Shown piece by piece: positions 13,513-55,249 of a stretch of DNA of 64,000 bases. Positions within the stretch are counted from its first letter, which is position 1. Each line of letters begins with the position of its first letter. The notes under the pieces were generated by a model that was given only the letters and a program-made list of their open reading frames with translations, was not told where the DNA came from and searched no databases. A program made the position numbers and the translations under genes. This DNA is from Lentisphaerae bacterium GWF2_49_21 (GTDB taxonomy: Bacteria > Verrucomicrobiota > Lentisphaeria > Victivallales > GWF2-50-93), in contig MHBH01000080.1 in the NCBI GenBank assembly GCA_001804805.1, forward strand, positions 1 to 64,000, written 5' to 3'.

Positions 13513-13865
13513 GATCATTGGGTGATTTGGAGATTGAAATGATTGGATGATTGACGGTGGCAGGCTCCAAGAACTTCGAACATTCAACTCTGAACATCCA
13601 ACATCGAATGAATAAATTTACAAGAACACGTCTTGCGACGTTAACTACCAACTGATTCAATTCAGGACATTTGAAATTCGTTTGTAGTCAAGCTCGCAAG
13701 AGCTGTTCTTCTCTCTTAGGAATTCTCCGAAGACTGCCTTCTTCATCCACAATTCAAACTTCAAAGTCCAATGTTCGATGTTCATAATTCCTCTCGGGCA
13801 GGTATCCCAGTCATTCGGCGGGACAAGTGCCCGAGTTACTTCGTTACGACCTGTTCGACTGTTCC
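13513..13865. repeat. Intergenic region with AAGAACATG-type repeat
   Basis: No supported gene. Positions 13622-13710 hold a diverged copy of a repeat whose better copies are 18478-18559 and 22420-22534; all begin AAGAACAYG and end GCTCGCAAGAGCTGTTCTT. The rest is low-complexity sequence (CATTCAACTCTGAACATCC-like). Confidence 0.6.
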
Positions 13866-18477: not shown

Positions 18478-18559
18478 AAGAACATGTCTTGCGACATTGA
18501 CTACAAACGGATTCAATTCATTGAATATGTTCGTAGTTAAGCTCGCAAGAGCTGTTCTT
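18478..18559. repeat. 82-bp dispersed repeat, intact copy
   Basis: This copy runs from AAGAACATGTCTTGCGACATT to CTCGCAAGAGCTGTTCTT. It lies upstream of the minus-strand GH-A gene. It is the same length as the copy at 22420-22534 once the 33-bp insert in that copy is removed, so it serves as the empty-site reference. Confidence 0.7.
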
Positions 18560-19792: not shown

Positions 19793-20167
19793 ATCCTATT
19801 GTATCTCAGTTGTTGGGTTATCCTACAAGTTAAGATAGCAAATAAATCGGCCGTATCAAGGGCAAATTATAAGAATATTCAGAATAATTTCAGGGAAAAG
19901 ATAAGATGCACGCTTCCGCCTTCGCTGAGAGGCTATGGCGGACACAGGAAGCTTGGACTTCAAAGTTGAAACATTTTCTTGTTGGAGTACAAACTTTAGT
20001 TTGTCTTGATCTTAGCTTGGATTGTTCACCACGAAGGGCACGAAGTTATCGAAGCTAATACAAGAGCGAGGATTGCATTGTTTTTTATAGTACAATTATT
20101 TCTTCGTGTTCTTCGTGCCCTTCGTGGTGAAAATGATTTCAAAATAAACCACTGAACGGAGGTGGGA
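19793..20167. repeat. Divergent intergenic region between regulator and prepilin
   Basis: A single inverted-repeat arm GTTGGAGTACAAACTTTAG lies at 19981-20003. Around 20029-20135 an inverted pair of CACCACGAAGGGCACGAAG-like sequences brackets the sequence. A CCTTCGCTGAGAGGCTATGGCGG palindromic element copy lies near 19917-19941. No TGCAACCGGTTGCA palindrome is present and I see no gene. Confidence 0.5.
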
Positions 20168-21088
20168 ATGAAAATCAGCAATCAAAAATTGAAAATCAAA
20201 AGTGTCTTCACCCTTATCGAGCTGCTCGTGCCCTGCCAGCCGACGTGTCCCTCGAAGCTCTCTTGGCGAAGTGGGAAGTTACCCGTAAGGGGACGTAGGC
20301 CAATTCAGTCAAAGTTCACTTTGATTGAATTGCTTGTGGTAATCGCGATCATCGCAATTCTTGCGGCAATGCTCCTGCCGGCGTTAAAGAACGCGAGGGA
20401 TGTGGCGAAATCATCTGTCTGCACCAACAATCTGAAGCAACTGGGTCTTACATTTGCATTTTATACCAGTGATTTTGAATATTACCCCAACTTCCGATGG
20501 CCAGAGGCGCTGAATATGTATCTCAACGGAATAGTACATGGAACTTCCGTGCTTCCGGATTCCGACGCCAATCTTGATAAAGTAAAACCTCTGGATCTTA
20601 TTCATTGCCCGATGGTCCCGACAAAAAACAATTCCGATAAACCTATAACTTTGACATACGGCATGAACGGAGTCTGTGTTGATGGAGAGTTCTGGAGGCG
20701 TCTCATCAGGCCCCAGACCAACAATGATGAAGTGTTGCCACGCGTAAAAACTTCCAGGGTTGTCAGACCCGAGGCATTCGGGATTTTGACAGAATTCTTC
20801 AGTGCAGACGATCCGCAGCAATCCGCATGGACCGCTACCTGGTGGCGCCTGCAGGTTGGAAACGAGCTTGCGTTCCTGCTGACACACGGTAAAAGCTCAA
20901 ACGTACTGCTGGCTGATGCACATGTGGGAACTGCCAAGGCAGACAAAGGAAAACCCACCGGATACTATGGGAACATCGGTCTTTTCTATGTCCGTGACAG
21001 TGATTCTGAAAATGATTCAATGAACAATTATGATTATGGTGCCTTCCGAAATGCAGGCGCGCTTAAACCCTCCAAATACCTCCAATGA
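20168..21088 (+). CDS. Prepilin-like protein with duplicated leader and cassette insert
   Basis: The ATG at 20168 follows GGAGGT; the protein has 306 residues. FTLIELLV occurs at 14-21 and again at 50-57, where it continues as [16 protein letters not shown]. The 28 residues between ([15 protein letters not shown]...PIQSK) are nearly the same as in the next gene. The body ends with [15 protein letters not shown], an H-X9-D-A variant of the H-X9-DG motif. The residue before F is Val in the first leader and Lys in the second. The pre-leader ([11 protein letters not shown]) comes from AT-rich repeat-like DNA. It is followed after 48 bp by another prepilin, probably in one operon. Confidence 0.85.
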
Positions 21089-21136
21089 TTTCCAGGGGAA
21101 AAGGAGAGTGGAGTACAAATGAACGGAGATGAGGAT

Positions 21137-22066
<930 letters not shown>

Positions 22067-22579
22067 TGGGGTGACATGCAGAAAGTTCGAGAGTTCGGAA
22101 TTTCGTAAGTTCGGAAGTTTTCAGGCTTTGCTTCTTTACGCATGGAATGCGTTGAATAATATAGCCTATGGTTTCAACCATAGGTATCGTATCCAAAAAA
22201 TGGAATCGCCCTGAAGGGGCGGAGTATATTCCGTCCCTGCAGGACGCATCTTTTTCCCATATATTACTCCAAGTCCCGAACAATGTTTAAATTGCAAAAT
22301 TACTGGAAACTTGTTAGTAGTCAAGCTCGCAAGAGCTGTTCTTTAAAAGTAGGGACGGCATTTATGCTGTCCCATTCTGAATGTTAAGATGGTACATGCT
22401 AAAGCACGTACCTACTCCCAAGAACATGTCTTGCGACATTAACTACAAACGGATTCAATTCATGGAGTATGTTCGTAGCCTGTCGCGCCGTAGCATCTTT
22501 GCGAAGGCGGGTTAAGCTCGCAAGAGCTGTTCTTCTCGGGCAGTCATGCCCGAGTTACTCCCTCGCAAACGCCTTTCGA
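22067..22579. repeat. Intergenic repeat region with nested element
   Basis: The palindrome CCTATGGTTTCAACCATAGG lies near 22165-22184 and recurs near 36365, 37681 and 54691. A partial copy of the AAGAACATG repeat ends near 22344. A full copy (22420-22534) carries a 33-bp insert at 22479-22511. No gene is seen. Confidence 0.65.
22479..22511. mobile_element. 33-bp palindromic element inserted in another repeat
   Basis: The insert starts CCTGTCGCGCCGTAGC and ends GCGAAGGCGGG, and its ends can pair. Removing it restores an 82-bp repeat identical in length to 18478-18559, with GTTCGTAG joined directly to TTAAGCTC. No target-site duplication is visible. Other copies with the same boundaries lie at 30245-30278, 30352-30382, 42068-42100, 45597-45627 and 52937-52968. 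Reverse-oriented ones lie at 24231-24261 and 30737-30768. Confidence 0.75.
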
Positions 22580-23982: not shown

Positions 23983-24582
23983 GGTTTTACACAGGAGCGC
24001 CGGCATCCTGCCGGCAAAAAGAATGTGGTACAGGCGTCTCGCCTGTAATCTCTTAACAATGTAGCACAGGCATCTTGCCTGTGTCTTATCTCTCTGGCTT
24101 TGCTGGTAGTTAACGCATTTTTGCGTGTTCTCGGATTGGAAAACTACAGCCAATAATGGCTTAACTACTAACGAAATTCCCTTGCAGATAAATGAATTCC
24201 GATGGAAGCGGGGGGAGATAATAACAGCTTCCGCCGTCGCCAAGAAGCTATGGCGGACAGGCCGCTGTAAAAACAAAGCGGTGAATAATCACCGCAGTCC
24301 AAAGTCAGGACGAAGCGCCTGACGTAAAGATGAAAAGACATAAGAATCGGAGAGCCGTCCCTACCTCGGGTAAAAAACGTAAACACTATTATGAACTCAT
24401 TAATAATCCGCCTCGGGCGGATTATTTTTGGGAAGGAAATGCCGGCCGAAGGAATATTCGGTCTTTTTGGGGAATGCTGTTTTGTTGCCGGATAATGCCT
24501 GGTGAAATGCCGGAAAATTGTTGTTCAAATCTTCCCTCACCTCAAAAGGTTCCCCCGGTCGGCAAAATCATATATCCTTGTT
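23983..24582. repeat. Repeat-rich intergenic region
   Basis: It holds GTACAGGCGTCTCGCCTGT-type repeats (24022-24085), the AGCCAATAATGGCT palindrome (24148-24161) and a reverse copy of the palindromic mobile element (24231-24261). An intrinsic-terminator-like hairpin follows at 24402-24430. No supported gene is present. Confidence 0.6.
24402..24430 (+). terminator. Rho-independent terminator, orphan
   Basis: AATAATCCGCC (24402-24412) pairs with GGCGGATTATT (24416-24426) and runs into a T-tract. It is about 420 bp after the SGNH gene and before the alcohol dehydrogenase promoter, so it would insulate the two. Confidence 0.65.
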
Positions 24583-29873: not shown

Positions 29874-31489
29874 ACAGGCAAGGCGGACAATTCAGCCACA
29901 GACTTGCACTGACTAGCCGCAACCAAATTTGAATTATACGGATAGTATTACAGATTAATTCCATGAATTATCAGCTTCTCGATTGCTTCAAGATTAAATT
30001 AAAATATGGGCGGAGACGGATGCCTGTGATTATTCTTTCTTGGCTTTGCTTGTAGTTATACTGTATCGCATTCATTGATATAGTAATTCGGTTAAAGTAT
30101 GTCGGGTTTTCTGTGTCCGCCGTAGCATCTCAGCGAAGGAGGGAATCCGACGTTTAATTGTCGGTTTAACCACAGCCAATAATGGCTTAACTACAAACGG
30201 AATTCCCTCGTAGATGAAATCATTTATATTTCCTGTAAATCCTGCCTGCCACGGCGTAGCTCGAAGAGCGTAGACGGGTTATCCTGTCTGAATATCTTAA
30301 CTTTGTGTCTCCGTGCCTCCGTGCGAGAAAATCTTATCTGTGTAGTCTGTGCCTGCCGCGCCGTAGCCTTGGCGAAGGCGGGTGTTCTGTGGTTTACATC
30401 AAGATTGGCAAGAATATTGCTTTGTTAAAACTCCTGGAGGTCATTTTATGGATTCAAAGCATTACAGGACAGGAAAGGCCATGATTGCCGGGGCTGACGC
30501 CGTCGGTTCCGCTTTTACCTATGCTCTTGCCCAGGTCGGGCTTGGCGACGAGATCGCATTGCTTGACGCCAGGCACGAACTGGCGGTAGGACAGGTAAGA
30601 CATGAAAGACGCAAGAATCCCGGCAAGCCCGACATCAGCATCCGTGAGGAATTCATCGATTCGGAAAGCTGAATTGGCGCATAGCAGGAATTTTTCACCA
30701 CGAAGGACACGAAGTTCACGAAGATTCTTTAACCATCCGCCGTCGCTAAGAAGCTATGGCGGGACAAGCAGAACACACAGATTACACAGAAAACTCAGCT
30801 TTAGATTAAAATAAAATATGGGCTGAGACAAAGTATTGCTCGGAAGCGATTCGTTTCCGAGTAATACGTTTCGTCTGCCCATAACCTTTCTCCGAAAGGT
30901 TGTTTGCCATGGCAAACATATTTTACAGGATTAATACTTGGTGACTCCGTGACTCCGCTGTGTCGGTCGTAGTTCTTCTGAGGAGAACGAAGACTTATGC
31001 GAGGACAATCTTGCTTGCCTTGCGCGAAGGCGGATGATTCGTGGGCAAAGCTACTGATAACTGGTTACTGATGACTATTTAAAGGGAATCTACAGATTAC
31101 CACTTGAATTACAGGCTAGTATATATACAGTGAAATTACTTGGTTGTACTGTATGAAACGGGGGTCTGAATAAAGGGGGATTGATGAAATCCGCGAATCT
31201 CGCATTCCGCACCACCGCCTCCACAGTTCCATCATCCCGTCCTTGTCATTTATTTCTTTATCAATCAATGCGCTTATCTCAGTAAGATTAATACGATTTA
31301 CATATTAGAATCAAATTAAAGGCCAGATTTTTGATTTTAAGGTCATTATTCAAGGCTAATTACTATGTTATCATTTAATAATCAATATGTTAACCATCCC
31401 CGGGGATCGTAAGAGTAAGATATAGATCCCAGTTTATTCATGGTTTGGAAAATCATTATTAAGTTTTGACAACACAGAGGGAGAGATAT
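29874..31489. repeat. 1.6-kb repeat region containing a gene remnant
   Basis: Contents include the AGCCAATAATGGCT palindrome (30174-30187) and palindromic mobile elements at 30245-30278, 30352-30382 and 30737-30768, with a variant near 30114-30143. A repeat at about 30810-30957 recurs at about 41478-41648. The only gene-like piece is the dehydrogenase fragment at 30448-30672. A minus-strand open stretch at 31116-31304 (63 codons, no good start) could be a degraded gene end, but support is weak. Confidence 0.55.
30448..30672 (+). pseudogene. N-terminal remnant of an L-lactate/malate dehydrogenase
   Basis: A normal GGAGG ribosome site precedes MDSKHYRTGKAMIAGADAVGSAFTYAL. The stretch KAMIAGADAVGSAFTYALAQVGLGDEIALLDA matches the Rossmann start of L-lactate dehydrogenases (usual motif GAGAVGS, here GADAVGS, followed by a LxDEIxLxD strand). 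The frame then loses similarity and stops after 74 codons, where the full enzyme has about 310. No catalytic His or substrate Arg is encoded nearby. It is best read as a truncated, decaying gene whose remainder has been replaced by intergenic repeats. Confidence 0.6.
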
Positions 31490-37309: not shown

Positions 37310-38163
37310 CTGTTTTCTGCATGTAGGGCAGTTCTCGATGAGAACGCCTCTTAAAGCAACCGCGCTCATCCGCCGTCCCCCGTCGCCAAGGGGCTTCCGC
37401 CTTCGTATAGAGACTTCGGCGCGACATGATGGGGGACACGGTCGCGTCCTGTAGATATCGGAGAAGATTCCGTCTACGCAAGGCCTACGCCGTGACAAGA
37501 TGGTGGACAGGCTTCGAGCGGGGTAAAAAGAGAGTCCAAGAAGATGCCGGCAGTATCCCCGTCGAATGACAGGCGGGACGCCTGTCCTACATTCTGGAGT
37601 CCAAGAAGGTGCTGGCGCGCCATAGGAAAGAGAACCGTTCCTTCCGTCCCTTCAGGACGAAATCTTTTTGGATCCGTTACCTATGGTTGAAACCATAGGC
37701 TGTATTACTCAACGCCTTCAGCGTTGATGAAGTGTAGCACAGGCGAAACGCCTGTTCCTTCTCCTGTATTTCCATGGTTTTCAATGACACAATGGCATGC
37801 GAGACGCCTGTCCTACATTCTGCTAAGAACAGAATCAAATCCTATACTATCAACTACTGGCACCAATGCCTTACAAGAAGTTGCCGGCAAGATGCCGGCG
37901 CTCCTGTGGAAAGCGGACACAGATCCGCATCAGGAAAAAAGAAAAGCGGCACAGGGGTGCCGCACTCCAAAGATTGCTTCGCAATCATAAATTAATCACA
38001 GGCATCCTCCTTCGCATGGACGCTACGGCGGACAAGAGATGCCTGTGTTACATTGTTAATCGTCTCGAAATAGTATGGAGTTTCAAAATAACGGAGGGCG
38101 GGTTTTCTTACCCGCCAGGGAAAACCCGCGCTCCGTTGAAGAGGAAAAGCATTGAGACGATCA
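37310..38163. repeat. Repeat region after the YafQ-type toxin
   Basis: It contains second copies of block B (37516-37627) and block C (about 37641-37727), and GGCGAGACGCCTGTCC-type repeats (37731-37815). A reversed copy of the 25956-25984 terminator hairpin lies at about 37939-37967. An inverted CGGGTTTTC pair sits near 38100-38135, next to the end of the GH9 gene. No supported gene. Confidence 0.6.
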
Positions 38164-41302: not shown

Positions 41303-42149
41303 GCCGGGAAAAATACAATTATTTAAAATAAAACAGAGTTATCCCACAGGATGACGGATGGATGGATGAAATCTTTTTTGGGCTTTTGGAAATCAAGCAA
41401 AAATGTTCTCGCACAAAGGCACAAAGGCACAAAGCCGCAAAGTAGGAATAATTGGTTTCAAGAGTGCTCCAAGGTTAATAAAATATGGACTGGGACAAAG
41501 GATTATTCGGAAACGGATGTCCGCTTCCGAATAATTCTTTCGTCTGCTCATGACCTTTCTTTGAAAGGTTGTTTGCGATGGATTCGACAAGCTCACCATA
41601 AACAAACATATTTTACGGGATTAAAACTTGGTGTCTCTGTGACTCCGTGCGAAGATATCTTCAACGGAAGCCCTCCTGCGTCAGGATATGGATTGTTGAA
41701 AAATACAGTGATTGATTCCGAAATGTCGCCAAGATAAGACACAACTAAAGTTGTGAACTCCTACAAACTGATGTCTCAATCCTGATCATCACGTAACCAA
41801 GTTTTACGCACAAGCTACATGCATTCAAAGGGCATGAATTATGCTTTGTAAACTATGGGGATTTCTGATAATTAGGAATGCCCCGGATTCAATCATCCTC
41901 GAAAGGCAGTGGGTTGAACGCGATAAGCGAAATCGCTTTACATAACAACACTGTCCCAAATAAGCTGGGACGGATGGTTGGATGTCTGGATGATTGGATG
42001 AATGGGTTTGAAATGAATCAGAAAACGAGTTCTTATTTCTCTTTTTCATTTTTTCACATCCATCCAGCTTGCCTCGCCATAGCTTCCCAGCGACGGCGGG
42101 TCATCCATTAATCCATCCATCCTGAAAACTAAATCGAGGAGGATGTGTC
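41303..42149. repeat. Repeat-rich intergenic region before PilC/GspF
   Basis: A long repeat at about 41478-41648 matches 30810-30957 but carries a 21-bp insert at 41582-41602. Low-complexity GGATGGATG-type tracts lie near 41353-41370 and 41970-42120. A palindromic mobile element is at 42068-42100. No supported gene. Confidence 0.6.
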
Positions 42150-45459: not shown

Positions 45460-45762
45460 GATATCCTCCATATTCATTTATGTTCGAAGTTTTTTATGCG
45501 AAATGAAAAGGCAATATACATTCCCGGCAGGGACATGCAATTGCCGAGAGGCAGTTGTCAGTAATCAGACGACAGAGGGCAGACGACAGAGGACAGCCTG
45601 CCGCGGCGTAGCCTTGGAGAAGACGGGAGGTCGGAAGTTGAGACATAAACTCGGATCCCTTGATTCCATGGGCTCTCCGGATTACTATGGTGTCCCCATC
45701 CAATTTTTGCATTTTATTTTTAGTACGGATTAAGTAAACGACATAGTTTACTGAATACGTAC
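45460..45762. repeat. Intergenic region with palindromic element
   Basis: A copy of the palindromic mobile element occupies 45597-45627 (CCTGCCGCGGCGTAGCC to GAAGACGGG), within GACAGAGGACAG-type low-complexity sequence. No gene seen. Confidence 0.55.
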
Positions 45763-52891: not shown

Positions 52892-53245
52892 GAACTGTCG
52901 TCAGAAGACAGAAGAATGGGACGGGGAAGTAAACAGCTTGCCGCAGCGTAGTTTTTAACGAAGACGGGTAATCAGTAAAAGTGACTAGTAGAGGCCATTT
53001 CAAATTGCCTCTTTTGAATAATATTGGGCTCAATTAGTCGTTTTTTTAAGGAATAATTAATTTTCTCTGACTGTTGAATGAGTTCGTCTTTTCTTCCCTT
53101 CATCGGTTGGATATTCCTTGTCACGCATTGCGTGATAAATTGGATACTTGTCCTGCATGGCAGGATTGGATATTCAGTCTTTCCATTCGAGTTACCCACT
53201 CGATCTGAGAAAGAGCCTTATTTCCAAAAACGGGAAAAGGATCAG
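52892..53245. repeat. Intergenic region with palindromic element
   Basis: A 32-bp palindromic element lies at 52937-52968 (CTTGCCGCAGCGTAG to GAAGACGGG), within GTAAACAG/TAATCAGTAA low-complexity sequence. The frame of the next gene stays open to an ATG at 53078 with hydrophobic residues, but the ribosome site favours 53246. Confidence 0.5.
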
Positions 53246-54552: not shown

Positions 54553-55249
54553 CATCACATATGAAAAATAAAACTTTCTTGAATGAAGGCCGGCACCATG
54601 CCAATGCCGTTAACTTAAGTGTAACATTTTAATAATATGAGAGTTAGATTGTTTTTCCTCTTTACGCATGGAATGCGTTAGGTAATAAAGCCTATGGTTT
54701 CAACCATAGGTATTGAATCCCAAAATTTGTTTTGCCCTGAAGGGGCAGAGTATATTCCGTCCCTACAGGACGAATCATCTTTTATACGAAACCTGTGGCT
54801 GAAGCCACAGGCTATATTACTCAATCCCTTCAGGATTCGTCATCAGAATATCAACGCATTCGAGGAATATTCCAGGGCCGTCGCGGACATCTTCGTCAAG
54901 GACGCCAAGTCGCAGAAGCTCCCGATCGCTAAATGCTTCAAATAAGATATTCGGCCACAGACTTTCACTGGCTAACCGGCCACAGACAACTCGGATATTT
55001 CACCACGAAGGGCACGAAGTCCACCAAGGGGAGTAATGCAAACATATTTTACAGAATTAAACTTCGTGAGCTTCGTGCCCTCTGTAGTGAAAAACTCCTG
55101 ATTTGATGTATTGTTTGAAAATTTTAATCACTGTGCAAAGGGGATCTTATGATATCTGGAAAAGTTGTCCGTTGTTTTGGGAAAGATTTGTTTCATTGGA
55201 TGCATTAGTTGCGTTGATTTCATCAAGTACTGTCTTCTGCAAGCTTCCA
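54553..55249. repeat. Repeat region with possible gene remnant
   Basis: CCTATGGTTTCAACCATAGG (near 54691-54710) and a GGGGCAGAGTATATTCCGTCC unit (about 54738) are copies of repeats seen at 22165-22245 and 36320-36400. The stretch 54847-54945 encodes INAFEEYSRAVADIFV and ends LPIAKCFK in a codon-biased frame, resembling the end of an unidentified protein. A GGCACGAAGT inverted pair lies near 55010-55085. Confidence 0.45.
54847..54945 (+). pseudogene. Possible C-terminal gene remnant
   Basis: About 32 codons reading NINAFEEYSRAVADIFVKD and ending with KCFK have GC-rich third positions like the real genes and stand out from the repeats that precede them. The parent protein is not recognised. 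The frame upstream is made of the CCTATGG-type repeats, so the fragment has been cut off by repeat sequence. Chance cannot be excluded. Confidence 0.3.

Follow-up and report, generated by a model that had tools for sequence, protein, structure and literature searches.

Very small mobile repeats, recognised by their presence or absence between related genomes, are reportedly represented by the small dispersed repeats of Nostoc described by Elhai in 2008. These repeats are cited in PMC3116915. Among the palindromic repeats, the E. coli TnpAREP requires conserved stem mismatches and a 5' tag in its REPs, and characterised RAYTs cleave at CT or CA (PMC8266576); RAYT-driven insertion of REP-like palindromes is still a matter of inference. 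A separate class, the CGTC REPs, combines a CGTC or TGTC tag with a hairpin, has no known transposase and includes RPE-4, RPE-6 and the Neisseria dRS3 (Di Nocera 2013, PMC3733652). It is defined by a CCA-like tail and an 8-9 bp stem whose first two pairs are A/T; CGTC dimers of H. neapolitanus are located inside other palindromes, and REP insertion into other palindromes is mentioned in passing (PMC3733652). REPs also act as insertion hot spots for IS elements (Tobes and Pareja 2006, PMC1525189). Rickettsia palindromic elements (RPEs) are ∼150 bp long and often lie in frame with a conserved peptide (PMC10969869).

The window, a stretch of 64,000 nucleotides analysed as a whole, belongs to a Lentisphaeria-type genome of 5.9 Mb in 91 contigs (G000). 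It contains a 33-bp insert, hereafter B, which reads CCTGTCGCGCCGTAGCATCTTTGCGAAGGCGGG and splits an 82-bp repeat made of two GTAG-tagged palindromes in inverted orientation, hereafter U (Table 1). Each U unit is laid out as GTAG-TTAA-arm-CGCAAG-arm-TGTTCTT, and the uninterrupted 82-mer folds into a single long hairpin (z -6.6). Removing B from the interrupted repeat rejoins GTTCGTAG^TTAAGC, returns the 82-bp length of the intact dimer at 18478-18559 and recovers GTTCGTAGTTAAGC. In the interrupted repeat, the 59 bp to the left of B are 95% identical to 18478-18536, and the 23 bp to its right equal 18537-18559 exactly. The initial annotation, which had described a clean 33-bp insertion into another repeat, is therefore borne out. 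Its description of the insert as palindromic holds in that a hairpin is present, but two conserved internal mismatches make the palindrome imperfect. Nearby, at 22133-22265, lies a member of a ∼130-bp repeat family with inverted halves, many copies of which occur in G000, G001 and G003 at 81-89% identity.

Table 1. Copies of B, B-like sequences and U repeats in the window.
Feature	Position	Strand	Observation
U dimer (82 bp, inverted) split by B	22420-22534	+	folds as one hairpin without the insert
B: tag CCTG plus imperfect hairpin, at GTAG^TTAAGC	22479-22511	+	45.1 bits
U dimer, empty copy	18478-18559	+	93.8% identical across the junction
Single U unit, empty	22312-22344	+	
U units of another dimer, empty	13615-13710	-	
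B in ATCC-type repeat	42068-42100	+	E<=1.7e-7; orthologous site in G001 lacks the 33 bp
B in palindrome (GTCGGGTTTT..GAATCCGAC)	30111-30143	+	strong; absent from the earlier list
B at CTGTG^TGTTCTGTGGTT	30352-30382	+	E<=1.7e-7
B at TTCTG^TGGTTA	30736-30768	-	E<=1.7e-7
B copy	24230-24261	-	E<=1.7e-7
B copy, absent from the earlier list	19915-19947	-	50.1 bits, strong
B-like copy, diverged	45597-45627	+	weak, E 0.09
B-like copy, diverged	38005-38036	-	weak, E 0.008
B-like 30-bp in-frame insertion, diverged	21253-21283	-	weak; in pilin-like gene 21119-22066, absent in paralogue 20162-21088

A covariance model finds seven strong copies of B within the window. Seven sister copies had been listed previously; four of these are strong, whereas 45597-45627 is weak and 30245-30278 and 52937-52968 fail a threshold of E=1, both resembling diverged B copies by eye. 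Two copies or relatives of B lie within the 5' part of pilin-like reading frames. The two pilin-like genes of the window, at 20162-21088 and 21119-22066, carry two FTLIELLV motifs at their start with sequence composed of B-like palindromes between them, and a full copy sits in a similar frame elsewhere in G000 (C26:77077-77109). Other small features of the window include two Acido-Lenti-1 RNAs (RF01687) that exceed the gathering score, at 37680-37725 and 54792-54837, and TTCACCACGAAGGACACGAAG-type repeats at 20025-20131, 30694-30714 and 54999-55019, some of them arranged as inverted pairs.

Across G000, a profile built from B, as initially proposed, counts at least 139 copies (covariance model, E<=0.001). 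The core pattern CGCCNTAGCN{2,9}GCGAMGGMGG has 104 matches against 0 for a reversed-pattern control; by both counts, the family lies far from chance. Junctions and flanks were analysed in 67 distinct, well-bounded copies drawn from 1.63 Mb of G000. These measure 30-34 bp, mostly 32-33 bp (33 bp in 40 copies, 32 bp in 20), and 64 of the 67 differ in sequence. B encodes no conserved peptide and carries no transposase gene, in agreement with the lack of coding capacity noted earlier.

The conserved architecture of B begins with a tag (CNTG or CYGYG), followed by a closing pair (T-A or C-G), a C-G pair and an optional 1-nt bulge. An outer stem of four pairs, mostly CGCC/GGCG, leads to an R.M mismatch, a T-A pair, an A.G mismatch, a GC/GC stem and a loop of ∼6 nt. 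Of 106 copies taken without any requirement for pairing, 81 form the complete set of four outer pairs, compared with a mean of 55 (maximum 62) after shuffling of the 3' arms. Closing pairs alternate between T-A (75 copies) and C-G (17), whereas the internal R.M position remains mismatched, since it is GA in 56, AC in 37 and AA in 10. As single-stranded DNA, the given strand of B folds at -8.0 kcal/mol, compared with -5.4 for its complement. No strand bias of B relative to GC skew was found (44:45).

B is a very small mobile element. Comparison with 0.8 Mb of a sister genome of the same genus (G001), along the lines of the filled and empty sites suggested at the outset, identified only two fully clean orthologous sites from which exactly 33 bp are absent in G001 with intact flanks. 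One is C23:19746-19778, within a U unit at GTAG^TTAA, and the other is window position 42068-42100; both are free of scars when empty. Another site, C32:201856, is filled in both genomes. B is judged mobile because 33 bp are missing at the two sites while a filled site is shared, and this same pattern indicates that the insertions differ in age. Exact core copies are about five times more numerous in G000 (103) than in G001 (20); movement of B therefore took place mainly on the G000 side. The G001 locus L040 was rejected as an exact orthologue of the 22420-22534 site; it matches in position only, since the dimer there lacks its left half. The sites at C63:68022 and on C40 were not comparable with G001. 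A genome search with joined flanks returned empty-looking counterparts for nearly every B, a count in which weak matches and self-matches spanning the insert are included.

Analysis of the 67 junctions reveals no target duplication, as the initial annotation had stated: 58 lack any repeated base, and short flank matches are rarer than with swapped flanks. A DDE-type MITE, in contrast, would be expected to duplicate its target site. The junctions likewise show no fixed target motif. The left tetranucleotides are GTAG (11), CTTT (7), TTTC (6), CCAG (5) and others, and only 2 of 67 left flanks end in CT or CA. An IS200/IS605-type non-autonomous element would share the missing duplication with B, but B lacks a fixed tetra- or pentanucleotide 5' of the insertion. 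Almost all copies of B are followed by T or A, and none of the 67 by G.

The choice of target is nevertheless non-random and biased to the feet and tips of REPs. The site GTAG^TYAA of U accounts for 11 of the 67 distinct junctions, where about 0.007 would be expected from the number of sites, and 12 of 82 U units are occupied at this same nucleotide. A further bias concerns hairpin apices, which hold 18 of 67 junctions, compared with 6% for swapped flanks and 4% for random positions. Many of these apex hosts are GTAG palindromes, such as GTAG-GTACGTGCTTT^AGCATGTACC. The remaining hosts include ATCC, TTCGA and TTCTG repeats, several junctions lie in simple repeats, and at C76:10628 a B is nested in a B that is itself nested in U.

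Beyond the genus, the exact core of B is found in contigs classified as Kiritimatiellae, Verrucomicrobia, Planctomycetes, Deltaproteobacteria, Acidobacteria, Omnitrophota, Bacteroidetes and others, and a similar tag precedes most of these matches. By an estimate from the size of the collection, chance should yield only a few core matches, although single matches may be due to chance and binning errors are possible. In another family of the same order, three genomes (G170, locus L254 and others; G031, L253 and others; G159, L252 and others) each carry one B subtype amplified within a longer repeat, often at contig ends.

The route of movement, for which the initial annotation had named no mechanism and suggested looking for a matching transposase such as a RAYT, could not be traced to a gene: neither a RAYT nor any other recurrent gene is paired with B, despite 20 Y1 transposase (Y1_Tnp; RAYT or IS200-like) genes in G000. 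Several of these are flanked by GTAG REPs of their own. The locus L094:16965-17603 (C9) encodes a 212-aa RAYT with, on both sides, members of the REP family in whose tip B sits; surrounded by six GTAG-GTACGGSCTTTAGSCTGTACC-type REP copies, it constitutes a clear REPtron. None of the G000 Y1 loci examined has B on both sides, and a paired RAYT was rejected on this ground. In 93 B-bearing contigs from other genomes, the only genes that recur in the neighbourhood of B encode ABC-type ATPases; transposases do not recur there. The single Y1 match near B in that set (L196) was rejected as a partner, since it carries terminal repeats of its own, whose end lies 17 nt from B. In 198 genomes of the class, the number of B copies does not track the number of Y1 genes (Spearman coefficient 0.125, p 0.08), a weak and confounded test because G170, G031 and G159 carry B amplified within longer repeats. 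Several genomes contain B but no detectable Y1 gene.

With a probability of roughly 0.55, we interpret B as a non-autonomous miniature mobile element that inserts precisely into other repeats, without target duplication, and is moved in trans. Movement probably proceeds via single-stranded DNA. B would be recognised as a folded single strand, through its 5' tag and mismatched hairpin, by an enzyme supplied in trans, and would be joined into a single-stranded target such as a hairpin loop or foot, as HUH single-strand transposases do. This model is suggested because the tag, the mismatched hairpin and the missing duplication match the HUH mode (PMC8266576), and because hairpin loops and feet remain unpaired. 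The candidate enzyme may be one of the 20 resident Y1 proteins (RAYT or IS200-like), or something not yet recognised. How REP-like palindromes multiply becomes a testable question with this element, because the donor is defined (33 bp), the target nucleotide in U is fixed and the candidate enzymes are few.

Several observations could also be explained if B inserted only rarely and composites of a GTAG REP with B were then spread by the RAYT of the host REP or by gene conversion. Near-identical forms of some composites recur at several loci (GTAGGTACGTGCTTC-B-AGCATGTACC), the 212-aa RAYT of L094 is bordered on both sides by the matching REP family, and B lies inside longer amplified repeats in G170, G031 and G159. 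Such hitchhiking is less likely, however: at C23:19746 the same pre-existing U unit carries B in G000 but not in G001, almost all the elements differ in sequence, and B has entered a wide range of hosts (U, several REP stems, ATCC, TTCGA and TTCTG repeats, B itself and pilin genes). Slightly less likely still is that B is simply another REP family, mobilised directly by a resident canonical RAYT or IS200/IS605 transposase, as its tagged, mismatched hairpin, the lack of target duplication and the many Y1_Tnp genes, several with GTAG REP pairs, might suggest. What speaks against a standard RAYT is that B has neither GTAG nor a paired gene and does not use CT/CA junctions; the target is not a fixed tetranucleotide either, and Y1 genes are undetectable in several genomes that carry B.

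Covariation in the stem would equally fit a functional structure, and the site filled in both genomes would fit an immobile B, that is, an ancestral RNA or DNA structural module of the repeats that was precisely lost in places. We consider this very unlikely, given the identical ends of B in unrelated hosts, in a B within U and in reading frames, the excess of copies in G000 (103, against 20 in G001) and the scar-free empty sites. Still less probable is a different recombination system that works on folded single-stranded DNA, for example a tyrosine recombinase of the integron type that would cut G^TT within a hairpin. The attC core is G^TTRRRY, to which the U site G^TTAAGC conforms, and mismatched hairpins resemble attC, but only the U sites fit this core, and the apex and simple-repeat junctions do not.

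B combines clean empty and filled orthologous sites and a fixed target nucleotide in U units with the lack of a paired RAYT, and it shows REPs parasitised by a smaller REP-like element, with nesting to three levels. Tentatively, B could be the visible part of a widespread, undescribed, RAYT-free system in many phyla that moves ∼33-nt DNA hairpins with the core R-TAGC...GCGA-M into the loops and feet of hairpins.

The nearest described groups to B are the GTAG REPs, the CGTC REPs and the Nostoc small dispersed repeats, and B lacks defining features of each REP class and of RPEs. The initial annotation had likened B to Rickettsia palindromic elements, and the similarity of style stands: both are palindromic, have no coding gene of their own and sometimes lie in reading frames. 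As an assignment it was rejected, since B measures 30-34 bp (33 bp at this locus) rather than ∼150 bp, lies mostly in other repeats and has no conserved in-frame peptide. IS elements that target REPs share their hot spots with B but are far longer and carry a transposase gene, which B does not. Like the Nostoc repeats, B is present or absent between close relatives, at two clean sites; it apparently differs in sequence and lineage. With CGTC REPs it shares a tag plus hairpin and the lack of a dedicated transposase found, whereas its stem is G/C-rich with C-G and G-C as first pairs, has internal mismatches and no CCA tail, and forms a single hairpin rather than a dimer. The conserved stem mismatch of E. 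coli-type REPs (PMC8266576) is also present in B. Like GTAG REPs and REPINs with their RAYT (TnpAREP), B is a short, tagged, high-copy, dispersed and non-coding hairpin, and some of those REPs also have stem mismatches. Unlike them, B has a CNTG or CYGYG tag in place of GTAG, and neither a paired RAYT nor a CT/CA junction. GTAG REPs are instead the targets of B, and the host U and apex repeats do carry GTAG.
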